Shown here one piece after another: positions 20,142-57,115 of a DNA stretch of 64,000 bases. Every line of letters starts with the position of its first letter. The stretch's first letter is position 1. A model generated the notes under the pieces. It had not been told where the DNA came from and did no database searches. It saw only the letters and a list, made by a program, of their open reading frames with translations. Made by a program: the position numbers and the translations under genes. Source of the stretch: Sycon ciliatum (lineage: Eukaryota > Porifera > Calcarea > Leucosolenida > Sycettidae); contig NC_088645.1 in the NCBI RefSeq assembly GCF_964019385.1, positions 37,676,632 to 37,740,631 on the forward strand. Direction: 5' to 3'.

Positions 20142-20149
20142 CATAAAAG
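20142..20149 (+). promoter_or_regulatory. TATA box CATAAAAG
   Basis: Lies about 30 bp before TTCAACT, an initiator-like start near 20174, and about 90 bp before the first ATG of the small gene. Confidence 0.5.
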
Positions 20150-20233
20150 AGCAGACTTCGACACTTGTGTTTCAACTGCAATCTCGACCGGCTCGCAGAA
20201 CAACCTGTGGACGCAAGTTAACTTTCAGTCTGC

Positions 20234-20614
20234 ATGAAATCTTGTTCGGAAACGATGGAGGCTAAAAGCGTTAGTTTCTCATCCCACCTCACCGTGTTCT
20301 TCTATGATGAACCAATGTGTGATATCGAGACACCATGTATTGAGAGTACTGACTCTCTGCAGGACCCACTTCCGTCCATTGGTGACTTAGATTTAGACGA
20401 TTACTCGGAATACTTCGTTGTAGACGACCCGAATGGCAACGGAAAGTATGAAATTCTAGATACAGCACGATCCAATTCGTCCATTGGTCTAGTGAGGAAT
20501 GACACCGCTGCAAGGGATCCAGAGGACTCTTCGCCTTGCCTCAAGACGGAATTCCAGACGAGCGGAAAGCCCTTACATCGTTGCAATGCGAAGAAGTGGA
20601 AAACGCCAAGCTGA
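20234..20614 (+). CDS. RCNAKKWK-tail family protein 1
   Basis: 126 residues from the first ATG. A second in-frame ATG at 20255 (MEAK...) gives 118 residues and aligns better with the short MEA/MEM/MDT starts of the paralogues. The middle is acidic (DLDLDDYSEY at 51-60) and probably disordered. Near the C-terminus E106-F107 is followed ten positions later by R116-C-N-A-K-K-W-K and then TPS, stop. The motif spacing is exactly conserved with the genes at 23437, 26981 and 31657. I know no described family with this signature and no catalytic residues are evident. A short regulator or adaptor whose basic tail makes a contact is an inference. No intron is needed. Confidence 0.7.
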   Translation: MKSCSETMEAKSVSFSSHLTVFFYDEPMCDIETPCIESTDSLQDPLPSIGDLDLDDYSEYFVVDDPNGNGKYEILDTARSNSSIGLVRNDTAARDPEDSSPCLKTEFQTSGKPLHRCNAKKWKTPS

Positions 20615-20699
20615 TTTGACTACACTCAAGCGCTCCCTTATCGATGACTGGGGAAACTGGACTATGAGGAATGCTATTTATTTTCACCAGACTTGAAGT

Positions 20700-22333
20700 T
20701 CCACTAGAACCAGAATAGACAATGGCAAGATGAACATATCAATATTTAGATTTCCCCCAGATACTGTACTAGAATTTGAGACTAATTATTGGTCGGTTTC
20801 CGCTGGCTAGACGTCTTCTAGAAATGAGATTTTATCACTTTTCACCACTTATTGACAGCGATTTAACTGCTTGAGCTTGAGGCCTTTTGAGGAGCAACTC
20901 CTGTATTTACATGCATTTCCATTTTGCAGATTTCAAATATTCGTTTCTATCTTGATTATTATATCCTGATGGTGTGACAAGCTCATTTAGTTTGGCCAAT
21001 ACAATCCGTTTGTTATAAAGTAGATGGCAACGACAATGTTCATGTATACTTAGCCTTAGCCAATAGTGTGTGCGGTCAAAGCTCAACTCGCTTTACTTGC
21101 TGATGTCATATCGTTAGCATCTCCTGGAAACCTTTCAATCTTCATTTTTCACATCCGTTTTAGTCACAACCATTGCCATCAAACCGCTTTGGACTACACA
21201 CTACACTGCAAAAAAGCAGAGAAATAAATTCGAGAAGGAACATTGAGTCCTAGCACACTAAACGTAATAATATTCACTGATGTGGCAACACATCTGGCGC
21301 ACATGGCGCACATGCGGATTCTGTCACGCCTAGATCCTGAGATAGGGACATTTCCCATGACCCAAAAAGAATGGCAGTTTGAGATGTAAAGATCGGGGCT
21401 GTTTGCATGTGCGATGCACTTAGAGTGAATAACTCTGTAGTATAGCTCAAGGACTGTCAGAAAGACGGCAGATACCCTACTAGGCTCCACTCGCCATTGC
21501 ATCATCGTTTCGTCAAGTCCTGTGCCCATGTCAAATACCGGGGATCCTACTTGTGAGATCATCCTATTACGGTAAGTTGAATGAACATGTACATAATCTT
21601 GGAGAGCCGGGGATTAAAGGGGACCACAAGCTTACAAGTTTTCCGATCCAGCTAAGCATCAGGTCGTTGAATGTCATGATCTCAGCAATCAGTTTTGTGC
21701 TAATTGTTGCACATTTTTGACTCAACAGTATTCTGCTTATAACCGTTAGTGTTAGACAAAACGGATAACTTGTAAATTTTTGGTACATCATCTCCCTGCC
21801 ATTTTTCCTACATGTACAGCCATACATGACTTTGTACATGTATAGCTGGACCCAAAGAGGTTTATTTTTCACGGGGAGGGCGGACTACTCTAACGTGCCA
21901 GTTTTCAAAGAATTGTTTTGAGTTTGTCCGTACCAGAGTCGGTTCCATTATCACGTCAAAACAAATTTCTGTCCCGATCCTCAGTGGAACTCAGCCTGAG
22001 ACGGTGGTGGTTGAGCAAAAGGCATCCAGCGCCGCACACTTAGTTTTGTGCCCTGTTATCGTACTTTCTGACTGCTTACATCGTGTTACCTTGTTACAGT
22101 GAAAAAAAGTTACAGTAGTGGATAGTTGCTGTTGTTGTTTGGCTTTATTTAGAGTGGAGTTCCAAAACAGGCGTAAATTTCATGACAATGGTCCCACTGA
22201 TAATAAGAGAAAAGAAAAATAATATATAAAAATCAGCGGACAAACAGAACAAAGAAGAAGATAAGTTAGATAAGTAATATGAGCACGGCAGCAGGGGAAA
22301 AAATGTCACAAGCACGGCAACCGGGAAGAAAGG

Positions 22334-22340
<7 letters not shown>
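20700..22340. other. No gene recognised
   Basis: R1-like fragments near 21650-21725 and 22015-22080. A possible AATAAA at 21222. The 122-codon minus frame at 21194-21562 has no recognised motif and is not called. Confidence 0.45.
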
Positions 22341-22345
<5 letters not shown>

Positions 22346-22402
<57 letters not shown>

Positions 22403-22505
22403 AAGAGACAGAGAGAGACAGAGATAGAGACAGAGAGAGACAGAGACAGAGAGAGACAGAGACAGAGAGACAGAGTGCGAGTGAGAGAGAGACAGAGAGA
22501 GAGAG
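22346..22505. repeat. (GA)n microsatellite
   Basis: About 160 bp of GA/GACA repeats, preceded by ATAG tetramers. Confidence 0.95.
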
Positions 22506-23357
22506 TTACTGAAGCAGATGAGTTCTTCCTAGTTGAGGGTACTGCCTAACTAGTTCCTTCATAGCTCGTTCCACTCGTGTTTTCTTCTATTTTATATTCC
22601 TGTATTATACAAATAATCTCCGACGAACTCAGATGTTGAGCCAAGGAAAAATTTGTAACATGGAAACTGTTGTTGTTGAATTGTTGAAATTGGTTTAGTT
22701 GGTGGACTCGATCACAAAAGTTGTGCCCAGAATTTCCATGTTAAAATATGCGAGGAGTCCAGAGACAACAATTTCATTGAAGTTATCAAGAGCGTTCCTG
22801 TATTAGCTATAACAAGCTGTTAGCTATTTACAAACTACCCGGGATAATACATGAGTACAGTGTGTTTGAGTGAATGCATTACAACCCATACTATTCAAAA
22901 TTAATAGTACTCTACCTGTCCATTTACAAGTATAATATTATGTAATTCATTACGCGAATGTCGTTTTGGACTCATTTCAATTGTGTCATTTACAAAATTT
23001 GGTTTCGTGTACGTCTTACATGTACATGTACAGTTATGTTCATGTATGTGGCGACTACTAATGCTCAACATACATACACTGTACCTGCACATTTCCTCTG
23101 TGCTGCGCTGACGAGTCCACAAAGGACGAAACAGTTCTGTCCGCAGATTGAGTACATGTACATGTACATGTACATGTACATCATACATGTACATGTACAT
23201 GTATTACGTCACACGCAGATTTAGCTTAGATTTCTACAGGTGTTGAATGGCAGCACGGTGTACGGTGTCATGTTCTTGTGTGTGAGGAGAATATGGCTGG
23301 ACAGCTCCCGCCAATGGAAACTTGTGTTTGCAATAATTTTTTCCCGTCCCTTAATAT
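22506..23357. other. Repeat fragments, no gene
   Basis: R1-like text at 22620-22735 (GGTTTAGTTGGTGGACTCGA). The 38 bp block at 23117-23154 runs straight into (ACATGT)n at 23153-23205. Confidence 0.5.
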
Positions 23358-23365
23358 TATAAAAG
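23358..23365 (+). promoter_or_regulatory. TATA box TATAAAAG
   Basis: A consensus TATAAAAG 27 bp before a TTCAGTC initiator-like site (about 23385). It lies inside the upstream open extension, so it decides the start: translation should begin at the next ATG, 23437. Confidence 0.65.
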
Positions 23366-23436
23366 CTGATACCTTCCCTCTATTCAGTCCAAAGAGATTA
23401 TCAGGAGTACTTCACGTTGAAGAACGTAAGCTGAAA

Positions 23437-23859
23437 ATGGAAGCCAGTTATTCCTGGGAGTTCCAGATGGAGTTTGATGATTGTGAAAAGTTGCTTGGTG
23501 CACTCGACAGCAGCTCAAAGAATGCAACGGCCCCTGGTGATTGTGAGCTAGGGCACTCACCCTCGGACAAGGTCCACCCTCATGGAGATGGCACCAGTAG
23601 TGCACTATCAATCCAACAGGTCGCCGCGCATGATGCCTGCAGTCAGCCGCAAGCAGCTGCAACCAGTCCACGCCACCAAGAATGCCCTGTGGTCTATGTG
23701 AAGCGAGAGTTTGAGGCAAGAGGAGTGACTTTAACACGCTGTAACGCAATGAGAATGAAAACACGGCAAGTGTCGAAGAAACATCAGCAACCGCGCTGGG
23801 CAAGAGTTGTCTCTGAACGGGACCATGAAATACTGTCGAAACATGTACGCACAGTATAA
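23437..23859 (+). CDS. RCNAKKWK-tail family protein 2
   Basis: The ATG at 23437 follows the TATA box by 79 bp and gives 140 residues starting MEASYSWEF. The upstream in-frame extension to 23278 lies mostly before the predicted start of transcription and is rejected. The middle is Ser/Ala/Gln-rich. E91-F92 is followed at the conserved spacing by L99-x-R101-C-N-A-M-R-M-K, so the last four motif positions are substituted relative to the paralogues. A longer basic tail of about 32 residues follows. This is the most divergent member. Function unknown. Confidence 0.65.
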   Translation: MEASYSWEFQMEFDDCEKLLGALDSSSKNATAPGDCELGHSPSDKVHPHGDGTSSALSIQQVAAHDACSQPQAAATSPRHQECPVVYVKREFEARGVTLTRCNAMRMKTRQVSKKHQQPRWARVVSERDHEILSKHVRTV

Positions 23860-23869
23860 GAATAATGAT

Positions 23870-24370
23870 GTGTTCCCATTTACTTCCTCTGACCAGACGC
23901 TGGGCTTCATATTTTTAATTTAAGGAAGGAATGTTATGGAGGCTTGGTATCATTATATCCAATTTCCAATCAATATACTTGTATGATTATTAATTAGATT
24001 CTTTTTCTGAAATGCCAAAACTTGATTCGGTTGTGCTCCTCTGGCAACATATCTGGGGTGATTATGAAAATAATAGTTTATTTGCGCGTTGTAATCAGCA
24101 GACTTTCACGACTTAAAGCAGCAGGATACCACGTAAGAGTTAACTACTACACTAGAAAATTTAAAAGGTTTTCCACTATAGATGTGTGACCGTGGATTTG
24201 GTGAATTTCACACCGTTTACATCCTTTCCTTCTACCTGTCTTGGCACATATTTATTCCTTAAAGAGCGTCTCCCAGTGCCCGATTACTAAGTGGCTGTAC
24301 GGGTGCCATTGCTGTAGAAAATAGATTCACTATAAGAATGTTCAGGACCAGATCAAGGCATACATATATA
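23870..24370. other. 3' flank, no gene recognised
   Basis: AT-rich, with no clear poly(A) signal. No other feature supported. Confidence 0.4.
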
Positions 24371-24450
24371 CACTAAACCTGTGACTAACGACCACCCCTT
24401 GGGGCCAGAGAAACAGGTCTTTAGTTGCAGGTGGTCCTTAGTTAGAGGTT
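24371..24450. mobile_element. Short pogo-like MITE remnant
   Basis: CTAAACCTGTGACTAACGAC on the left is mirrored by GTCCTTAGTTAGAGGTTTA on the right, an inverted repeat of the same style as 8926-9102. Confidence 0.5.
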
Positions 24451-24452
24451 TA

Positions 24453-25936
24453 CGCCACATGCACAACCATAGGTGAATGCGAGACCGTCCGTGCCTGGCG
24501 AAGTGGTCGGCAGTACCAGGCTGGTGGCTAGTCAACTTGAGGTGGTTTTTGTTGTGTTAGCCTGAAGCCACGCAGGAGTCCATTGTGGGACAAGACAAAG
24601 ACTGATTAATTTACAACGAGCATGCATAATTATAGATCAGAGAGAGACAATACGGAGAGGGACAATACGGCGAAAAACACTATAGACAACAGTTTTTAGT
24701 TGCAGGTTTTTACTATACATGTACATGTTTCGGTGTTAGAACAGTAGTGGAATTCCGTTGGAGATATATAGCGTCAATTCGTACTGCGTTTTCTTTAGAA
24801 GATTTTATATCTGTGGCACACATTTCATCATTTTCTTATCCTAGTTCTGAACACTCACATGTACATACAGGTAAATGTATTTTCCAGCGCAGAGCACTGC
24901 TCTGGACTACTTCTACATGTATATCCCTTTCTTTGCTCAGCTGTAGCTCATCACTTCTTATACAGCTTTGGTATTACGGAAAGTTTGGAAGCCCCCTCGG
25001 TAGGCGATAGCCTTTTGGCAATCAATGGAAAGTGAAAAAAGTACAAAACGTAAATTATTATATCAAACTAATTCTTAGAACCGAGCTGGGAAACAGGAAT
25101 ATCGTTACACTGATGCTGTGTGAGAAACTATGCCTTGATACGTGCAAGGACAGCGTGAGCAAAGTATACCAACATCATCATCCTTATCCTAGTCACTGCT
25201 TGTTGTATTTCACCAAGACACCCACGAGATTTCCATTCCCATTCATCTCTTCATGAACTCCTTGCCTGCATACCCTGGGCACCGGATAATAAGACATTGG
25301 GGTCAGACTGGAATGCCCAAGTCCAAAAACAACAATACGATTGAATACAGTACATTACATTACGGGACTGAACCTCACCAAGGCCAAAAGATGCAAACGC
25401 AATCCAGTGGTACAAAAAAGGCCCAGCACTCAAGGTTCGTAAGATCAAAACATGCTGAGGATTGACGAAAAATAGACCTAGAACTGTTGCGAATTGATAG
25501 AAATGGAAATGCATGGTGCTGGAGTCTTCACCGCAGCATTCATACGCCAGACCTGCCAGCAAATGTTGACGTTAACATGCTGCAAATTTCTCGTCACTAA
25601 CGAACTCCATGTAGCACTGCATGCGAGCAAACAACAACAACACTGCTTGACGCTGACTGCAAGTGTTCACGGGCTACGTCATTGTGATGATGTTTACTGA
25701 CCCCTATGAAATGTTGGCTCTTCTCGCCAAATCTGCACTCCACTGCATTGCAGGCCCTTGGAATGGTTTGTTTCCCTGATCGTCATAATCGCTATGACCA
25801 ATAGCTTGACTTCATAATCAGCTTAGACAGTTCTGATCTATTCACCTCTCGACGCTTTAGGAGCTTGATCTGCGCCTTGATCCTTGAGCGCAGTCGCGTT
25901 CCTTTTGATACGAGGAACTACATACTAACTACAGTA
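24453..25936. other. No gene; S2 SINE fragment near the end
   Basis: 25826-25925 carries an S2 SINE body fragment (AGGAGCTTGATCTGCGCCTT and GATCCTTGAGCG). The rest is unassigned. Confidence 0.45.
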
Positions 25937-26066
25937 CTAGCAACTGAAATCCGGCACCTTAGCGATGTGCTCACATTCTGGGGGTATCAATTTCGTAGTT
26001 TTACGATCCCGTGTTGGGCCTTTGCGATGTGAGCACACCGCTCAGGGGTCGGATTTCAGTTGCCAG
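25937..26066. mobile_element. Inverted-repeat MITE, CTGGCAACTGAAATCC family
   Basis: The ends CTAGCAACTGAAATCCGGC and GGATTTCAGTTGCCAG match the ends of the hairpin at 8315-8397. Inner arms GCGATGTGCTCAC and GCGATGTGAGCAC are also nearly palindromic. Confidence 0.7.
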
Positions 26067-26872
26067 CACTGCAGCTCTAACAGACTCTCTACGCGAACTT
26101 TTCGTGTCCCCCGGACCGTGATTTCAGGAAGAGGACAGGCACAGGCCATCCACGGAGACAGGACCGAAGGTACCGCAGATTGGGCCTTTGCCCGTAGGTA
26201 CATATACATGTACAACCAATAGTGCAATACCACAATTGCAAGGTTGTCACCCTGCTTCACACTGTATGGGGCCAGACACGTACATGATCGTGTTTGTACA
26301 TGTTAATGATACAGTATGTTGTGCCTTTAATCTTCATTTGCGTCACTAAGAACCGCTTGGCTGGTACCGGAAGGACTATTGATTGAATGGGAGATTGCCC
26401 TGCATCGTCACACTTATGCCAGGAATATGCCTATATTGTAGAAGTACGTCGAAGTGTACAGCCTACGGCTATCGGGGTTGGCTGCATTGTCTGGATGCTC
26501 TATCGACGGTGAGTATGCAGTCATCTAGTACAGTGTATCTACTTTTTTTGTGCAAACTTAAGACAATACTTAGTACATGACTGTATGTTATGTACGTACA
26601 AAGTATTGTATCGTGCTGAAGAGCCTCTTGCAATCACTATGTCTTGGGCGGCTGGCCACGCAGTGCACACATCAAGCGTCGCCCACGCGCAATGCTTGCG
26701 CTTTTGTGCATGGCTCCCGCGGAAAAGCCACTACTCATAAAGGAGGACATGCTTGACATCGGGTATAGTACTTGGGGCATTTGAAGTGTTGTGCCTGTTT
26801 GGGCCGCATCCTGATGTAAATAGCAAAGTACATGGGCATAGGTTCGCGTTCGCAATCATCATGCTCCGAGCC
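26067..26872. other. No gene recognised
   Basis: Nothing supported before the promoter at 26873. Confidence 0.45.
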
Positions 26873-26880
26873 TATTTAAA
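26873..26880 (+). promoter_or_regulatory. TATA box TATTTAAA
   Basis: TATTTAAA is 26 bp before a TCAGCTC initiator-like site (about 26899). The leader to the ATG at 26981 would be about 82 bases. Confidence 0.6.
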
Positions 26881-26980
26881 TCCGAGCAGGCAGTCCTCAG
26901 CTCATACATACCTATCGTCTATCTCAAGTTCTTTCTTCGCCGAATAAACTCACATCAGAGGAACTCGGCTCCAGTACGAA

Positions 26981-27319
26981 ATGGAAATGGCCACAAAGGA
27001 TGCGCAGTCAGGTCACAATGCAACGGACTGCAGGCAGTACGACGGGAAGACGCTGCATTATGACGGTGCACCGTTGCCATCAGCACAAGGAGTCGTGAGC
27101 CGCAGCAGGAACGGGGACGAAGCCAAGGTGGATGCAACAGGATTTTCAACTGCATCCCCAAAGTCCGCTGAAAGCGGAAGCCTTGTGTCCTCTCTGTCTT
27201 CGTCAGGCAGCTCGTATGGATCGGCCAGCCTGTCCGCATGCTTTATGACTCCGGAATTCCAACAACGGAGAAGTCCTCTTCCGCGTCGTAATGCGAAGAA
27301 ATGGAAGCCAGGAAGCTAA
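26981..27319 (+). CDS. RCNAKKWK-tail family protein 3
   Basis: 112 residues beginning MEMATKD. A Ser/Gly-rich low-complexity stretch runs from about 59 to 86. E92-F93 is followed at the conserved spacing by L100-P-R102-R-N-A-K-K-W-K, then PGS and the stop, so the motif is almost at the very end as in protein 1. The Cys of the motif is Arg here. It is intronless, with its own TATA box. Role unknown; apart from the motif and the M-E start I see no alignable sequence with the paralogues. Confidence 0.7.
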   Translation: MEMATKDAQSGHNATDCRQYDGKTLHYDGAPLPSAQGVVSRSRNGDEAKVDATGFSTASPKSAESGSLVSSLSSSGSSYGSASLSACFMTPEFQQRRSPLPRRNAKKWKPGS

Positions 27320-28959
27320 TCCACAGACCAAACATTTGTACGTGAATTTCGAAGTATTTGCTTTAGGTGAACCACTAATATCCCTTGCATTTACACCTAG
27401 ATTTTCCTCACCTCTTTGAACCGACATGTACTGTGAAGTTGATGTGTTGAGGATATTTGCATTGATCTTAAATTCTTGAGAGCCATAATTATGTTGATGC
27501 TTGGAGAGCGATGAAGTCTGAAACAGACTTTCTTTAAAAATCCATAATCCTTGCGATTGTTAGGTCAGTATCGCCGTGCGTTGCTCTTGCTCCCAGCAAG
27601 CAATACCTTCTTCTAGTGCAGTATATCTCAGTTTCTACGTCAAACTTGATAGTAATCCTTCACGTTCATTCTCCCTATGGTGTCTTCAGTATTGCACATC
27701 CTTTGCTTGCCGTTTGCGGACTTCTTGAAAGAGACTTTGCGAGCATAACATTAACTTTCTATGGAAACAATACATCAGTATAACTATATGAAGTAGATGC
27801 CTTTTGCCAGGGACTAAAGTACATAGTTAGGAGGTGGCGATCACGTTTATCCAATATCACTGCTGTTACTTACACAGGAGAGTGCTAGCGACAAGTTCTT
27901 GTCGTTAAGTGTTCATGAATTCGTCAATGATGAGACCTCTATGACTAAAATGGAGTTTTTGTGTTGGCTAATTACAATCTCTACAGGACCTTGGAGTCGC
28001 AATGACGGGGCGGTGAGAGGGGGCCTTTGATGGCGGTTTGCATGTGGAGGGGTGTTTTGACTAATTTTTCTAGAGTTGATGGATAATAAAAGCAGACATT
28101 TCGTACGGGTGAGCACCATCAAAACTGGTTGTAATAACTTAATAAGGGTGTTGATAGAGCGACAGGAGTAATCGAGCACCCTTGATTACGGCTAATATAC
28201 AGGACTTGAGGGCTTAGTCTGAAGTGGAATTCTGACGAAATTATGAACAGCATCTCTGCATAAAAAGATTATGCTTGACTGGCCAAGGACGAGTGTCATT
28301 TGCAACAGTTTCATCCTGTGCTTATCACATAATCAGGCAACACATGAAGAACATAAGCTCTGTAGTTTCTACAACGCTTTCGTTCCATTACTTTTCATGT
28401 CGAATCCAGTGGTATGTCAAGCAGCTGCAAGGACGTCCTTGTAACCGGCACTTTGACGGTCAGAGCAGTGACAGGATTAGCATCTGAGAAAGCGATAGTG
28501 GCGCCAACTACACAGGGACACAGTCACTAAAGAGCATAACAATTATCATCAAACGGCCGTGGAGACTACGATACTCCGTGCCACTCAACAGGACTAACCA
28601 CCCAGCATGGGGGTGGTACCAAAAACAAGCGAAACAAAAATGTACAAAGCAAATGTCCACCGTAAATTGTATTCTGTTTGCCCGTCAAAGAGGCTTGAGT
28701 TCTTGTCAAAAAAACATTAACGCGAGAAACAATAAATAAACGCACAGAAGGGAAGCTCTACCGTGCTACACTTTCAAGACAGTCACATCTTTCGCACATA
28801 CATGGACTTTTTCTGCGCACACAATTCAGGACCACACAGCACCAATCAAGAATGCAGACAGTCACTATCAATCATGTCCTACACATTTCGCTTCCTGAAC
28901 TCTCTAACCACACCATCATTGGCACACCACTTGTTCCAACCTGGGGATTTTCAAAACAA
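27320..28959. other. No gene recognised
   Basis: No supported ORF, promoter or repeat apart from short AT-rich runs. Confidence 0.45.
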
Positions 28960-29145
28960 CAGTGAAACCTCGTTAGGAAGAACACTGATAAGACAAATGT
29001 TTGCTTACAAAGAACTAGTATTCGTAACTCCATTGGATAAATCACTGTGTATTCACTGGGTATAACATACGGATAAGAAGAACTCCCGTTATTGCGAACA
29101 AATGTCATCGGTCCCTTGGTGTTCGTTCTAAAGGGGCTTTGACTG
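28960..29145. mobile_element. pogo-like MITE
   Basis: The left end CAGTGAAACCTCGTTAGGA and right end TAAAGGGGCTTTGACTG form imperfect inverted repeats of the pogo/Tigger type. TA follows the right end only. Confidence 0.5.
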
Positions 29146-29524
29146 TATTATTCTAAAACCATTAGCGCTTGTCTCGATTATTGCATGTCACGTGAGGGTT
29201 GCCTGTACTACAGCCAATGAGTGCTCTTGCTCAGCGCCGTTTGTCAAGACTAGCTTGCTTATAAACATTGTTTATGCTTGAATACTACGTCAATTGGTCA
29301 CATCCGCGGCAGTTTGGGCGCAATCATTATTTGATCCAGATCTTTTCAAATGTAACTCCATCAAACGTATCGCAAAAGACTACGTAAACATTTCGACTAC
29401 GTTAACTTTGCTCGTTCGACGCCCTCGAACTCGGAGAGTTTCGAAACGCTAACAAGATACTTTCTGGCGTACGTGGGAACTCTGTTATGATTCTAGTGAA
29501 AGGATAGATTGCTATGGAAATACC
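29146..29524. other. No gene recognised
   Basis: Nothing supported. Confidence 0.45.
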
Positions 29525-30503
29525 ATACACAAGAGAGATTGGAAGTTTTGCCACAACTCTGATTTTCAAGTCTTACTACGATCATCAGGCAACTGATGGC
29601 TCCAAAACGAGCAGCCTGAATTTAAGGGGGAGCAATAGGCAGGCATAGTGGGATGGTCTAAGACCATGATTGAGAAACAGAGGGTACCAGGTTCAAGTCC
29701 TGCTTGGAAGCGGAAGGATTTTTTCCAGCCGTGCTGCGACCCACAGTTAATTGGGAACTCGTGGCCTGGCACGAGGAAAACATGGATGCAGTGAATGGGA
29801 TTTTCGGTCTTTGACCACTTGCTGGTGAGCTAATCTACTCACCTCCCACCGCTTTAGGAGCTGCATCTGCGCCTTGATCCTTGAAGGGTGGTGGCGTTCC
29901 TACGGATGCGGAAAACCCGGCTTCCAGCCGAGTCTCACGCGAACCGTGAATTTTTTTTAAAATGTGGGGAATCATAGCACAAAAGTCAGGTGCAGGCGTG
30001 AAGTTGCCAAGTTTTCAGACTTGGGGCTAGGCAGCAGCAGTTCCGGCATGAATGATATAGAATAGACCTGTTATTGCACTTGGTCTTGGTTTAGTGTTTG
30101 GCCTTTTTCGTGCTTTGGAGTTATTTGCTGTTTTTGGACTGATAAGGTTGATTTACACTGTTCAGTGCACATTGTTAAAAAATTGAGCTGGGGACATAAA
30201 TGCCAAATCCACACATGAGAGAGAGTGTGGGTGTATGTGTGTGTGTGTGTAATGGTGTGGGCATGTGTGGATTTGGCATTTAAGTCCCCAGCTCTATTCT
30301 ATATCATTCACGCCGGCTGCTGCATAGCCCCAAGTCTGAAGACTTGGCAACTCCACGCCTGCACCTGACTTTTGCGCTATGATTTCCCACCTTGCTCCCC
30401 CTTATGTTCTGGCTGCCCGTTTTGGAGCCATCAGTTGCCCGATGATCGTAGTAATACGTGAAACTCAGAGTTGTGACAAAGCTTCCAATCTCTCATGTGT
30501 ACA
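29525..30503. mobile_element. Foldback element with a SINE in its left arm
   Basis: The left arm (29525-29635 plus 29963-30070) pairs with the right arm (30290-30503). Matching blocks include GAGAGATTGGAAG, ATGGCTCCAAAACG, GACTTGGGGCTA and GAATGATATAGAATAGA. The left arm is split by 327 bp of S2 SINE. The loop has its own inverted pair GAGCTGGGGACATAAATGCC and its complement, around a GT run. Confidence 0.75.
29636..29962 (+). mobile_element. tRNA-derived SINE, family S2, near full length
   Basis: The head has a B-box-like GGTTCAAGTCC. Then come CGTGGCCTGGCACGAGG, CAGTGAATGGGATTTTCGG, AGGAGCTGCATCTGCGCC and a T-rich end. Insertion between AGCAA and TGTGGGG is shown by the intact opposite arm of the foldback. 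Other copies lie at 6226-6423, 25826-25925 and 34345-34895. Confidence 0.7.
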
Positions 30504-30804
30504 AGGCTCTGCCCTGCATGGGTATTGAGCACCCGCCGGACAGCGCAGCACATCACGTGACTTGATTACATAACGCAATACCATACAGACCGGTATTTGA
30601 GAATTTAGCATTCGTCCACGGGCGAACTACAGCAGTAGTCATTAGTGGAAAGCTCTAAAACTGGCTCCTCGATCACTTTTCAAAATGATATGAAGACCGG
30701 ATCAAATAGGCCCTGCGCGTTTCAAGTGCAAATACTGAACCAAAGAGATCACTTCGCCAACGTTCCAAATCAGGCTCGAGTTTGGGGGTCCAGAGATGAG
30801 CTCT

Positions 30805-31014
30805 GTGGTCTGTGTGTTGCACTCACTCAGCTGTGATCTGTGTGTTGCACTCACTCAGCTGTGATCTGTGTGTTGCACTCACTCCGCTGTGATCTGTTTA
30901 TGGCACTCACTCAGCTGTGATCTGTGTGTTGCACACACTTAGCTGTGATCTGTGTGTTGCACTCACTCAGCTGTGATCAGTGTGTTGCACTCACTCAGCT
31001 GTGATCTGAGTAAG
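30805..31014. repeat. 28 bp tandem repeat, seven and a half units
   Basis: The unit GTGATCTGTGTGTTGCACTC plus ACTCAGCT is repeated seven times with minor variants, ending with a partial unit at 31001. It produces a short open frame that is not a gene. Confidence 0.9.
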
Positions 31015-31543
31015 TCAAACATAAGGGTACAATCGTCATGTACATGTAGACTGGTCGCCGTCATACCGTTTATTATCATTCCCCTGTGCTTCTTCCCCTG
31101 GTGACGCAAGATACAATGTATCAACGTAAATGCTTATGGTAAGAAAAAGGCTCAATTATGCGTCACTCTGGTATGTTTGGTCTCTCCTGCAGTCGGAACA
31201 CGATATGAGATTTGCAAGTAGTCTAGATTTCCACCGTAGCTGAGCTCCAAAAGGAAATGTTTGCATTGCTGATGACGGGCTTATCATGGTCTATCGTCGA
31301 CTCGTTACACTCGTTGTATCATGCATTCCTCACTACAGTATCTGTCGAGTAGTTTATGTACGTGTATCAACGCAGCGTGCGTCCATAATTAATGGTCATA
31401 TTGTCGGATTGTGCTTCCTTGTGTGCTTCCAAGGGCAAGGTCACCTCGCATTTGAGGATCTAAGTTAGCTATTTTGCCCAAAGGCTTTTGTGCAACCTGA
31501 GGACATTTAACATCAAACAGCACCCAAACAGATATTAGCAAGG
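31015..31543. other. No gene recognised
   Basis: Nothing supported before the promoter at 31544. Confidence 0.45.
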
Positions 31544-31552
31544 TTTAAAAAG
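31544..31552 (+). promoter_or_regulatory. TATA-like box TTTAAAAAG
   Basis: Lies about 113 bp upstream of the ATG at 31657. Weaker than the boxes of the paralogues, and the start site is not obvious. Confidence 0.35.
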
Positions 31553-31656
31553 AACACCCCAGAGCATTAATTTGGCGACTTCCACATTATCCAGGAGCTG
31601 TAATTTGTAGATTTTGTTATGCTTGTCCCTGCCTTCCGGCTCTTACTGCAGTGACA

Positions 31657-31944
31657 ATGGATACCAGTTGCGAGGCAATACCGACTCAAAGTCAAGTGGA
31701 GGTAGAACAGTGTGCCTTGTTGCAATTTGGCTACCAGGATGCGGCCGAGTACCAATCGGAACAGTCTCAGTTGAAACCTGCGTGGCGGAAGAAAGAAGAA
31801 TTTGTCGCAAGAGAAGGAGCATTGCGCCGATGCAACGCCAAAAAGTGGAAATGCTGCCCAAATACAGGCTCTAATTCTTCCACCACTGACCCCATCAAGG
31901 CTCTAACACTTTGTTTGGGTTCCCAATCCGTTGTGAAAATCTAA
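31657..31944 (+). CDS. RCNAKKWK-tail family protein 4
   Basis: The ATG at 31657 gives 95 residues starting MDTSCEA; the open frame before it has no better start. Gln/Glu-rich N-terminal third. E48-F49 is followed at the conserved spacing by L56-R-R58-C-N-A-K-K-W-K, then about 30 further residues including CC and a short hydrophobic stretch, so the motif is internal here as in protein 2. A pyrimidine-rich TCTTACTGCAG just before the ATG could be a splice acceptor, so an upstream non-coding exon is possible. Function unknown. Confidence 0.65.
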   Translation: MDTSCEAIPTQSQVEVEQCALLQFGYQDAAEYQSEQSQLKPAWRKKEEFVAREGALRRCNAKKWKCCPNTGSNSSTTDPIKALTLCLGSQSVVKI

Positions 31945-32310
31945 AAGGCCTCAATTGTTAAAGTCATCGCCAGTTGCAGGAAGAGGCTTTCCATACAAGG
32001 TTCTTTTGTACTCATAAGCAATGATTCTGTCCTGTCGGAATCTCGTCTTCGGCTCTCGTGTTGTTCTCACTGTGTTGACATCTTCATTTTATTTTACTTT
32101 GATAAAGATGTTGAAAACCAACTGTAGGATTATTCGCTGTGATACTGGCTTTCAAGAGTCTTATGTAGCGACTGGACACTTGCAATCAGCTTCATGAAAA
32201 TGTATTTAATATTCAATTATTCATGCCTTCGTCACGGAATATGGATCTTTTATGCATACCGGTATTCCCGCTCGGAGAAACCCGGACCCTGGCTCAGTCT
32301 TGATCAATCC
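31945..32310. other. 3' flank, no gene recognised
   Basis: AT-rich. Nothing supported. Confidence 0.4.
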
Positions 32311-32590
32311 TTCATAAAGCCCAGTGGCGCAGATGACACACAGCCTGAGGTGTTCTGCCATGCTGACAAACTTGCTGTCACACCTTCGGCTAAGTATCTC
32401 GGGGTATTACTCGATGAGGAGCTGTCCTGGAAGCCCCAAATTGCACACTTGAGCCGCAAGACTGCTAGGACCATTGGCCAGCTCTGGAGGTATGGTCAAG
32501 GACTCAGTTTACGTGCAAGACGCACTTGGTTCTTTAGCATGTTCCTCTCTCAGCTATGCTATGGTTTCGGTATTTTCGTACTTATTATTA
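32311..32590 (+). pseudogene. LINE reverse transcriptase fragment (thumb region)
   Basis: The frame contains KYLGVLLDEELSWKPQI followed by RKTARTIGQLWRYG. The K-Y-L-G-V-x-L-D...L-S-W pattern is diagnostic of the region after the reverse transcriptase core in non-LTR elements. It ends at an ATT microsatellite near 32585. Truncated on both sides. Confidence 0.75.
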
Positions 32591-32756
32591 TTATTATGTG
32601 CTTGTTCGCGTAGACATCAGCATGGCCTGCAGCTGCATTCATGGGCATGCAAATCAGGCAAACCAGCCAAAAATGTTCGCATAAGCCACTTGGAATAGAT
32701 ACAAAAGACCACAACAGTTTCAGAAAAAGAAGAAATATGCGAAAAGAAGACAAAAA

Positions 32757-52513: not shown

Positions 52514-53513
52514 GGTTGCCAAAGTCGCCTCCGGAGATCCGTACCCGAGATGGCCCTGGAGACCACGGAGCTCGGAATCGATTTTTCGGGGCAAAGAGAC
52601 ACATGGATTGATGTGTTTGTGTGTTTTGTTTTGCTTGTGCCATGACTTGCGTTTCGTTCCTTTTAGTGTATTGGTAGTTGTTTGTTGCTGCCGACTTCTA
52701 GTAGTAGTGTAGGAATAGAGCAGGACTTGTAGTAGTAGCAACGATAGTGTGGATAGTCGCATGGATCTGCCGTTTGACTCTCTGAAACCTTTCAAAGGTT
52801 TGACGATTGGAACTAAAAAGAGAATTTTTGGTAGTGGTAGAACGTTCAAGAGAGGGCAGAAGTTTGCAAAGGAGGGTTTTGTTCATGCTGTGACAATATC
52901 ATTGTCTGAAGCGGATGATGATGATGATGCTGTAGTCAGTGCATTTTGTTGGGCAAGCCAGACGAAGGATAAAAAAACACAAGGTGTTCCTGGCCATCAA
53001 CTGCACTAACTTCGACCTGCTGCTTGGTTTCTTGGCATTGGCATTGGCTTTTTTGGGCTTAGACTTCGGACATTTTCTCAACGGTCTCTTTTCTGGAGCT
53101 TTCCTACACAAAGGATACGACTTGTGAGAGAAATATACCGGATATGGCTGGTCCTTGGATTTCTCCCCGTTGTGGAAATGCTTGTAGCACAAGCAAGTGT
53201 CCTTGGATGGCACCAGATCTTTTCTATTGATTCTTGTGAGCCAAATGGCTCGCACTGTCGGCTTACGAGGGAGAAAATGAAATTTGATCTTCTTTCCTTT
53301 CACTCTCCTTGTCGAGCAACCCACAGCACAACAGTGATCATTCTGACCCATCCCCGGTTGCTACAAATAAATAACTGTACCAAAGGGAAGGAAACACACG
53401 TCTAAGGTAAAAAGGAGAAACAACCTGTCACTCTGCCCCGAAAAATCGATTCAAACATCCGTGTTCTCCAGAGCCACCTCGGGAACGGATCCCCGGAGGC
53501 GACTTTGGCAACC
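52514..53513. mobile_element. 1000 bp TIR element encoding a THAP protein
   Basis: GGTTGCCAAAGTCGCCTCCG at 52514 is mirrored by CGGAGGCGACTTTGGCAACC ending at 53513, with arms of about 88 bp including CGATTTTTCGGGGC. The interior carries one THAP ORF on the minus strand and no DDE transposase that I can see. THAP domains occur in P-element and some Harbinger-type transposases, so this may be a derivative. The superfamily is unproven and no target duplication is evident. Confidence 0.65.
52899..53351 (-). CDS. THAP zinc-finger protein of a transposable element
   Basis: ATG-initiated, 150 residues. Residues 7-60 show a THAP C2CH finger: C8-A-V-G-C12 (with C7 adjacent), then F-H-F-L-P, W, and C-Y-K-H-F, with the expected spacing, followed by NGEKS and P-x-P-V-Y-F. 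A Lys-rich stretch with Ala/Pro (residues about 90-110) follows. The normal end is unclear because the frame runs into a (GAT)n/(ATC)n tract near 52915, which adds Ile residues. THAP fingers bind DNA, commonly transposon ends. It sits between 88 bp TIRs with no other ORF of note. Lack of a catalytic domain makes it an accessory or truncated transposase N-terminus. Confidence 0.7.
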   Translation of the reverse strand: MGQNDHCCAVGCSTRRVKGKKIKFHFLPRKPTVRAIWLTRINRKDLVPSKDTCLCYKHFHNGEKSKDQPYPVYFSHKSYPLCRKAPEKRPLRKCPKSKPKKANANAKKPSSRSKLVQLMARNTLCFFILRLACPTKCTDYSIIIIIRFRQ

Positions 53514-54758: not shown

Positions 54759-55814
54759 CTACGGTGGTGGCCATGGTAGAATATCACTAATGCCCACCAA
54801 TTCAGAAAACTCGACATCGCGAAGCTTGCCGCTGTGGACTGTCGCACACGACACTGTCACCGATCCACTTCGACATGGGGTAGACGCTGGACCAGACAAC
54901 ACACCACCGATAATGTCATAAAGCTCGACGATGTGGGCTGTCACACACGACATGGTCACCGGTACACTGCTTCGACCCGGGGCGGGCGCGGAATCCGAGG
55001 ACACACATCGGATCTCTGTGTTCCACACAGTCTCGCCGCTTACTTCTTCCGTGCTAACCAGTAGTATCGCCCTTCTTATTTTCTCGGCTTCTACGCCTTG
55101 CGTTTCTAAGTCTTGCGCCTCCAACTCTTGCGCCTCCAACTCTTGCGCCTCCAACTCTTGCGCCTCCAACTCTTGCGCCTCCAACTCTTGCGCCTCCAAC
55201 TCTTGCGCCTCCAACTCTTGCGCCTCCAACTCTTGCGCCTCCAACTCTTGCGCCTCCAACTCTTGCGCCTCCAACTCTTGCGCCTCCAACTCTTGCGCCT
55301 CCAACTCTTGCGCCTCCAACTCTTGCGCCTCCAACTCTTGCGCCTCCAACTCTTGCGCCTCCAACTCTTGCGCCTCCAACTCTTGCGCCTCCAACTCGTT
55401 CGGCCGAGACTCCAGCTGCTTCTGAGCGTCTCCGACCGATGTCGCCATGCACTGTACCGACCCAGTGGGCCTCGGATCTGATCCTCCCACTGGCTTCGAA
55501 TACTCTTCTGACCGCTGCTTGTCTGTAAGCAAAGTCTTACACGCCTTGTCCGGCGTCCTTCTGGGCGAGGCAAGCAAATCTCGCTTTGCTTCGTCATAAT
55601 ATGTACTGACGGCGATGCGCTCGTCCATCTTCTTGAGCTTTTCGTTAAACTCTGTGCGGAGCGCACCCTCTTGCCGTCTAGCACTGTGCTCTTCAAACTC
55701 CTCGCGCTGTCGGAGCCTCTTCTCCACGTATTCTCTCAACCTATCGCCTTCAAATCCATACCGAATTCCGTTGGCGATAAAGCTGGCTTCAATGATCCAT
55801 AGTTCCTGTGCCAT
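54759..55814 (-). CDS. Gag-like protein with 15 bp repeat domain
   Basis: From the first ATG (55814) 351 residues; the frame stays open ten codons further, into the primer-binding site, but without an ATG. Residues about 1-70 (ELWIIEASFIANGIRYGFEG then DRLREYVEKRLRQREEFEEH) resemble the coiled, charged N-terminus of Ty3/gypsy-type gag proteins in animals. The centre is 19 copies of the pentapeptide ELEAQ from a perfect 15 bp repeat, predicted to be a long acidic helix. The C-terminal part is Ser/Val/Thr-rich. No CCHC zinc knuckle is visible. It is the only protein of the element, so mobility would depend on a helper. Confidence 0.75.
   Translation of the reverse strand: MAQELWIIEASFIANGIRYGFEGDRLREYVEKRLRQREEFEEHSARRQEGALRTEFNEKLKKMDERIAVSTYYDEAKRDLLASPRRTPDKACKTLLTDKQRSEEYSKPVGGSDPRPTGSVQCMATSVGDAQKQLESRPNELEAQELEAQELEAQELEAQELEAQELEAQELEAQELEAQELEAQELEAQELEAQELEAQELEAQELEAQELEAQELEAQELEAQELEAQELEAQDLETQGVEAEKIRRAILLVSTEEVSGETVWNTEIRCVSSDSAPAPGRSSVPVTMSCVTAHIVELYDIIGGVLSGPASTPCRSGSVTVSCATVHSGKLRDVEFSELVGISDILPWPPP
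55111..55395. repeat. 19 perfect copies of a 15 bp minisatellite
   Basis: TCTTGCGCCTCCAAC is repeated 19 times without a change, with diverged units at the edges. Since 15 is a multiple of three and the unit lacks stops in all six frames, every frame is open here. Only the minus gag frame is likely real. Confidence 0.97.
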
Positions 55815-55845
55815 GCTCGCTTCGTATCCTGGCGTGGTCGCCAAA

Positions 55846-56228
55846 TGTTGTGAACCCTCTGGTTCTCTAAAGTATCAGGAACGAACGACCCCACACGGCA
55901 CGAGGACAACTATTATTCTCAGTATATTTCACTTCCATCGACTAACAACAATGAAATGAATGGACAACTGAATGAACTGAACTAACTGAATAACTAACAC
56001 TAAAACCACCAGGTAGTTATAGCGTGAAAATGACAGCGTATATGAGAAAAGCATACACATACAACATACAACTACAGCGCACTCAGCAAACCGCACATAG
56101 CGCATGTAGCGTATACTACGTCGTAAACATCAACGGTACGGCGGAGTCGGAATACAACTGCATTGGAACGAACACAATGTCACAAGCGAGAAGGCCTTTC
56201 ACTCTCGAGAACTTGTGGTTTCACAACA
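55846..56228 (-). repeat. 5' LTR (minus-strand element)
   Basis: 383 bp, partner of 54294-54676. Promoter-bearing in the direction of the gag ORF. Confidence 0.93.
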
Positions 56229-56589: not shown

Positions 56590-57115
56590 GAAAACTGCAT
56601 GGAAGATCTTGTCTCAGCTATGGATAAGGAACCAGGATACAGCTACTTCTATATACAGGTTTTTTCCAACCCGCCCTGGAACACGCCACCTCGGCCTGGT
56701 CCTATGCCATCACCAAAGCTGAGCTGGAGCGTTTAAATATTTTACAAGCCAGAGTAGCTAGGAAGTATTTGCTACGTAAAAAAGTCAATGTAAATAGATG
56801 CGAAACGAAATCCCAGTTAAACGCCCTTTGTGACTTAGAGTCCTTGCACTTTCGCAGACAATTATCAGCTCTTGTTACTCTATTTAAACTTATACATATA
56901 TCTCCAGAACACCTCCACCATTTTCACCTTTCATTGTCTTCAAGTCCAAGAAGACCAAACGAACTTAACATCAATTATCAGTTTATCACGGTAGGCGTTT
57001 TTTCTTCCCTCTTTCCCAACAAAGCTGCAATGCTATGGAATTGCCTACCGCCTTCTCTTACCTCTATAACCAGCCTCCCATGATTCAAGCATTCTCTCTA
57101 TCAGCATTTTCGCCG
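56590..57115 (+). pseudogene. LINE ORF2 C-terminal region
   Basis: One frame gives QPALEHATSAWSYAI followed by ERLNILQARVARKYL, then DLESLHFRRQL...LFKLIH and finally LWNCLPPSL. These are, in order, the conserved blocks after the reverse transcriptase core in Jockey/CR1/L2-like elements. A premature stop before FKHSLYQHF and loss of the 5' part make it a pseudogene. Confidence 0.8.

Follow-up and report, generated by a model that had tools for sequence, protein, structure and literature searches.

A locally confined, apparently undescribed family of small predicted genes with a common 18-residue motif in Sycon ciliatum

A 64,000-nucleotide stretch of the genome of the calcareous sponge Sycon ciliatum (contig NC_088645.1; referred to as the window) contains four short open reading frames (ORFs) whose predicted products have one short basic peptide in common. 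This raises the question whether these ORFs are related genes and, if so, why the peptide was retained.

Four open reading frames and their common motif

Re-derivation of all ATG-to-stop ORFs confirmed an earlier note on this DNA in that four small plus-strand ORFs of 95–140 residues lie at a spacing of 3–5 kb. They start at window positions 20234 (A), 23437 (B), 26981 (C) and 31657 (D), with 3.2, 3.5 and 4.7 kb between successive starts:

20234..20614, plus strand: ORF A, 126 aa; acidic region, then the motif; stop 3 residues past the motif
23437..23859, plus strand: ORF B, 140 aa (MEASY...); the motif, then 32 further residues
26981..27319, plus strand: ORF C, 112 aa (MEMAT...); the motif preceded by a serine-rich region; stop 3 residues past the motif
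31657..31944, plus strand: ORF D, 95 aa (MDTSC...); the motif, then 30 further residues

An upstream ATG at 23293 extends the open frame of ORF B to 188 aa.

The motif common to A–D reads E-F-x6-L-x-R-[CR]-N-A-x-x-x-K and extends over 18 residues without a gap in all four proteins. Counted from E, the Leu lies at +8, the Arg at +10, C/R at +11, N-A at +12/+13 and the final Lys at +17. The arrangement given earlier, with E-F ten positions ahead of R-[CR]-N-A, Leu at R minus 2, and an end that reads K-K-W-K in three proteins (A, C and D) and M-R-M-K in one (B), was recovered position by position. Its description as a protein tail applies to A and C, in which three residues follow, but not to B and D. 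Each copy was located by ORF reading, by motif profile and by pattern scan:

20549..20602, plus strand: motif of A, EFQTSGKPLHRCNAKKWK
23707..23760, plus strand: motif of B, EFEARGVTLTRCNAMRMK
27254..27307, plus strand: motif of C, EFQQRRSPLPRRNAKKWK
31798..31851, plus strand: motif of D, EFVAREGALRRCNAKKWK

A six-frame scan of the window found the pattern EFx6LxRxNA four times, as compared to no occurrence in 100 first-order Markov windows. When the window was searched with a profile built from the four motifs, only A–D passed the inclusion threshold (E 3.1e-15 to 2.5e-13), and the next-best match (E 0.36) lay on the minus strand across D. Within the motif, none of 500 shuffles reached the observed alignment score in any of the six pairs, whereas ahead of the motif no similarity beyond that of shuffles was found (217 to 479 of 500 shuffles reached the observed score across the six pairs). 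These tests support the claim that one short motif was kept amid otherwise unalignable sequence.

The part preceding the motif has an acidic excess in all four proteins (K+R versus D+E: 7/22 in A, 6/13 in B, 7/9 in C and 4/8 in D), while the motif itself is basic in all four (5/1, 4/2, 7/1 and 6/2, respectively). Disorder-promoting residues make up a fraction of 0.68–0.77 of the pre-motif part. AlphaFold2 models yielded a mean pLDDT of 55.3 for A and 53.3 for D; as they were built from four-sequence alignments, such values do not prove disorder. In the model of A, a strand pair at residues 10–24 and the latter half of the motif reached about 65–74 pLDDT, and D nowhere reached 70. Of the suggestion that a conserved motif is embedded in disordered sequence, retention of the motif and mostly low-confidence models were thus found, while disorder itself is probable: judging from these models, the proteins are probably small and largely disordered.

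Confinement to one locus and age of the duplications

A search of the 538-Mb assembly with the motif consensus returned four places, which were the four ORFs themselves (E 1.1e-4, 0.013, 0.015 and 0.54); in this search only the best candidates were scored, here all four, and more divergent members could escape it. All members found therefore sit in one 11-kb cluster, in line with the local expansion that had been proposed. When the genome was searched with the complete A or D or with the last 59 residues of B, each query matched itself and nothing else better than E 1. Because these searches missed the known sister genes, little weight can be put on their failure to reveal further members. The number of four is a lower bound, since strongly diverged members or members without the Trp could be missed.

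Whether the motif resides in a dispersed, frame-broken repeat, which would speak against the reading of the earlier note, was tested as well. The assembly was scanned with a DNA pattern for LxRxNAxxWK, which gave 21 places, and four when read backwards. The 21 places comprised A, C and D, ten copies of a repeat on contig C8, two copies of another element (contigs C7 and C11) and six single places. E-F at the right distance was present in none of the 15 places that were read among the 18 outside the cluster; the three unread ones (L016–L018) have the same 30 letters as L015. Neither the consensus scan nor the LxRxNAxxWK scan of the assembly thus revealed such a repeat, and a dispersed repeat or transposon passenger was dismissed, the motif consensus being without places outside the cluster.

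The ten near-identical repeat matches on C8 (L014–L023) lie at 15.8–29.7 Mb, nine of them within 24.9–29.7 Mb, and this element is possibly chromosome-specific. COX1 was not found in the assembly, perhaps simply because this contains no mitochondrial contigs.

The motif is conserved as protein. In each of its seven invariant columns the four genes use two or more different codons, and Nei-Gojobori counting over the 18 motif codons gave pS values of 0.84–1.25, in which values above 1 are small-number noise and synonymous sites are saturated, next to pN values of 0.22–0.34 in all six pairs. Blastn among the four segments, in which stretches common to segments through the chosen segment limits were excluded, recovered the motif DNA for the pairs A/C and A/D; the other matches were simple repeats, a 72-bp piece described below and short stretches of low score. 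Because synonymous sites are saturated, the pre-motif parts cannot be aligned and blastn similarity is scant, the duplications look old, with one peptide kept. From sequence comparison, then, the four genes look like very old duplicates with a single 18-residue basic peptide left in common and, as this peptide is their sole common remnant, it is probably the part that binds something.

A 72-bp direct repeat with 83% identity (25833–25903 versus 29830–29901) is shared by the segments of C and D; neither copy lies in an ORF.

Gene structure and expression signals

The region ahead of each start was inspected for promoter-like elements, which are given with their agreement to TATAAAAG and with the share of sampled windows that contain an equally good one:

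20142..20149, plus strand: TATA-like box of gene A, CATAAAAG; differs from TATAAAAG at 1 position; 113 nt upstream of the ATG at 20255; share 2.5%
23358..23365, plus strand: TATA box of gene B, TATAAAAG; 0 mismatches; 79 nt upstream of the ATG at 23437; share 0.1%
26873..26880, plus strand: TATA-like sequence of gene C, TATTTAAA; differs from TATAAAAG at 3 positions; 108 nt upstream of the start codon; share 79%
31544..31551, plus strand: TATA-like sequence of gene D, TTTAAAAA; differs from TATAAAAG at 2 positions; 113 nt upstream of the start codon; share 24%

As candidate boxes, those of A and B appear good and those of C and D weak. The set of TATA hexamers was drawn up after the DNA had been seen, and 904 of 9058 random 70-bp windows contain one. 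An initiator-like TCAGTC follows the TATA box of gene B (by eye), and TCAGCTC follows the TATA-like sequence of gene C. In gene A, the second ATG (20255, MEAKS...) stands in a better context than the first (A at –3, G at +4) and is the likelier start. With this choice, –3 is a purine and +4 a G at all four starts, and each protein begins with Met-Glu or Met-Asp. Because the TATA box of gene B lies inside the frame open from 23293, the start at 23437 is favoured. Since a TATA-like box precedes a Met-Glu/Asp start in each ORF, we read the four as putative single-exon tandem duplicates.

Alternatively, the motif segments might belong to one or several spliced genes as exons, for instance as alternative last exons, with the rest of each ORF being a chance open frame. 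Frames of at least 90 aa are indeed common in this DNA (132 control ORFs), and donor-like sites occur within each of the four ORFs. Moreover, a splice-acceptor-like site is located at 23374, 63 nt before the start of B, where the initiator-like stretch fits the acceptor consensus as well. However, a crude consensus scan found no acceptor-like site from start to motif in any of the four ORFs, each has its TATA-like box and its Met-Glu/Asp start in fair context, and A and C stop equally far past the motif. We consider spliced exons rather unlikely.

Codon usage gave no clear support for coding and is of no help against spliced exons. With a model trained on 965 Wnt codons, 25, 12, 6 and 8 of the 132 control ORFs scored as high as A, B, C and D, respectively, and by synonymous choice alone 34, 33, 8 and 50 did so. 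When frames were compared, both other plus frames outscored the coding frame of B, and one outscored that of C. In the genome, the wnt domain (PF00110) was found at 55 places, counted as at least 21 distinct C-terminal exons; about twenty Wnt genes are also present in other animals, vertebrates for instance. A count of this size thus points to an animal and is no more than suggestive of a calcareous sponge. PMC5797367 gives 21 Wnt genes for Sycon ciliatum, more than 20 for calcareous sponges, 3 to 10 for the other sponges it names and 13 for a Sycon coactum transcriptome.

The flanks of the four genes have little in common: no 7-mer was common to all four in the upstream 300 nt or the downstream 500 nt, and three and five 7-mers, respectively, were common to three of them. 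AATAAA or ATTAAA was absent within 1.2 kb downstream of B and D. The ATTTA pentamer, chosen for testing after the DNA had been looked at, was counted over 600 nt downstream of each gene. A has 5, B 4, C 1 and D 1; the total of 11 compares with an average of 5.45 in shuffled sequence and was attained by 24 of 1000 shuffles. For single genes, the count was attained by 31 of 1000 shuffles for A and by 131 of 1000 for B. The pentamers after A (20615–21214) and B (23860–24459) lie on the plus strand, with none on the opposite strand. The enrichment downstream of A is suggestive at most; as a sequence signal the pentamers after A and B are weak, and would suit short-lived mRNAs.

Taken together, we think it likely that A–D are four genuine, old, paralogous protein genes.

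Pfam searches of 100 of the 182 high-complexity window frames of at least 80 aa yielded THAP (two frames), a decapeptide repeat and one Tpt1/KptA match (E 0.0009). The ORF at 52902–53360 (minus strand) has a THAP domain (Pfam E 1.8e-10) and is perhaps domesticated or transposon-borne. A 371-aa open frame at 54762–55874 (minus strand) contains a long (ELEAQ)n five-residue tandem repeat, with overlapping frames open on both strands. Two plus-strand frames (32143–32610 and 56628–57080) resemble reverse-transcriptase fragments by eye and had no Pfam match at E 0.1.

Possible function and relation to known systems

The explanation that we tentatively prefer, with slightly less than even confidence, is that of old, single-exon, TATA-type tandem genes encoding small disordered adaptor proteins with an 18-residue docking peptide for a shared partner. 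Each of the four old duplicates would be a separate single-exon gene under its own TATA-type promoter, and the products would be small, largely disordered proteins of cytoplasm or nucleus with a freely drifting N-terminal part. Function would reside in the basic motif, a linear peptide by which all four proteins would dock on the same partner, with E-F and L as putative contact residues and R-x-N-A and K-K-W-K as the basic part. The K-K-W-K of A, C and D fits a classical nuclear-import signal and may add nuclear import. Genes that are short, intronless and TATA-driven would be appropriate for regulators with rapid induction, which might compete for the partner or form a bridge to it; docking together with such induced regulation we put forward with some reserve, as an idea that may well not hold.

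The motif might instead serve nuclear import alone, in small proteins that have no other relationship to one another. It is basic, and K[KR]x[KR], the monopartite nuclear localisation signal, is present in A, C and D. Import would not, however, need a fixed spacing of E-F, L, N and A to be kept over synonymous saturation, and B lacks K[KR]x[KR] yet retains E-F, L, N and A. Import as the sole role of the motif seems improbable.

Searches of Pfam, the PDB and the literature did not turn up a described family for the motif, in agreement with the earlier note. The PDB gave no match for whole A or the motif profile, NAKKWK was not found in the literature, and queries with the R[CR]NA... peptide led to none of 48 pattern stretches being confirmed in viral contigs (IMG/VR) and none of 42 in prokaryote contigs. 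In Pfam, the 188-aa frame of B weakly matched DUF6767 (E 0.052; 13.8 versus 27 bits). Regular expressions for PIP box, PAM2, D-box, KEN, eIF4E-binding, SIAH, CtBP, 14-3-3, LxCxE and others revealed none common to all four proteins. Likenesses to homeodomain helix 3, WH2, IQ, the TTP CNOT1-binding segment and the SOCS/BC-box were also considered but not retained.

Pfam PF15721 matches D (E 0.0096 for the whole protein, 0.0028 for a fragment), which would make the four proteins divergent relatives of ANXA2R/RESIST. According to PMC12310523, RESIST, formerly ANXA2R, binds and inhibits the CCR4-NOT deadenylase and requires its C-terminal region for function. As a small protein of this kind it bears a likeness to the present family. 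The two scores of D (16.8 and 18.6 bits) nevertheless fall short of the curated cut-off of 27 bits, and no match was reported for A, B or C. Moreover, upon truncation of D at the last residue of the motif the match disappeared, and it returned with the next three residues, which occur in D alone. This relationship, which depends on residues outside the motif, was set aside as very improbable.

PPP1R15 (GADD34/CReP)-like phosphatase adaptors were tested because A carries an RVxF-like stretch (KSVSF), at which a strand pair is modelled (pLDDT about 65–73). PPP1R15 (PF10488) likewise has its docking segment at the C-terminus, after a low-complexity region, and we take the motif to resemble its substrate segment loosely. 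Against this, B, C and D lack RVxF, and hmmscan reported a PP1c_bdg (PF10488) match for none of the four proteins. The sole PF10488 match in the genome at E ≤ 10, a single 446-aa frame on contig C2 (L036; match at 9217182–9217304, minus strand; 23.2 bits versus a cut-off of 26.1), looks by sequence like this genome's PPP1R15; it has RVxF and a different C-terminal segment. As RVxF was limited to A and the candidate of this genome differs in this way, kinship to PPP1R15 was likewise set aside as having hardly any probability. The L036 frame also carries long poly-Asp stretches.

In gene architecture, the cluster may be compared with the insect E(spl)/Brd complexes, which according to PMC1310631 contain Bearded-family genes and, in Drosophilids, intronless bHLH neighbours. 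The likeness, an analogy of architecture only, lies in a few short proteins with short common motifs encoded in a compact gene cluster. By eye, no Bearded motif was seen in A–D. The Brd box (AGCTTTA) and the GY box (GTCTTCC) occurred after none of the four stops within 600 nt.

Orphan families built round a short linear motif are taken to be common in animal genomes. The present one appears to be a genuine, locally confined and apparently undescribed small gene family. A further-reaching reading, which we regard as doubtful, is that of a gene cluster restricted to this lineage, perhaps to sponges, whose quickly induced adaptors are built on a docking peptide not described before. It would be a counterpart to the Bearded cluster of insects that arose independently, with a conserved signalling or mRNA-control protein as partner. 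Because 18 residues alone survive, gene finders and homology searches easily miss such families. If the partner of the peptide is a conserved protein, the motif would be a new docking motif that could be tested at once, and the family would provide a case of disordered regulators that duplicated and drifted round one contact site in an animal lineage.
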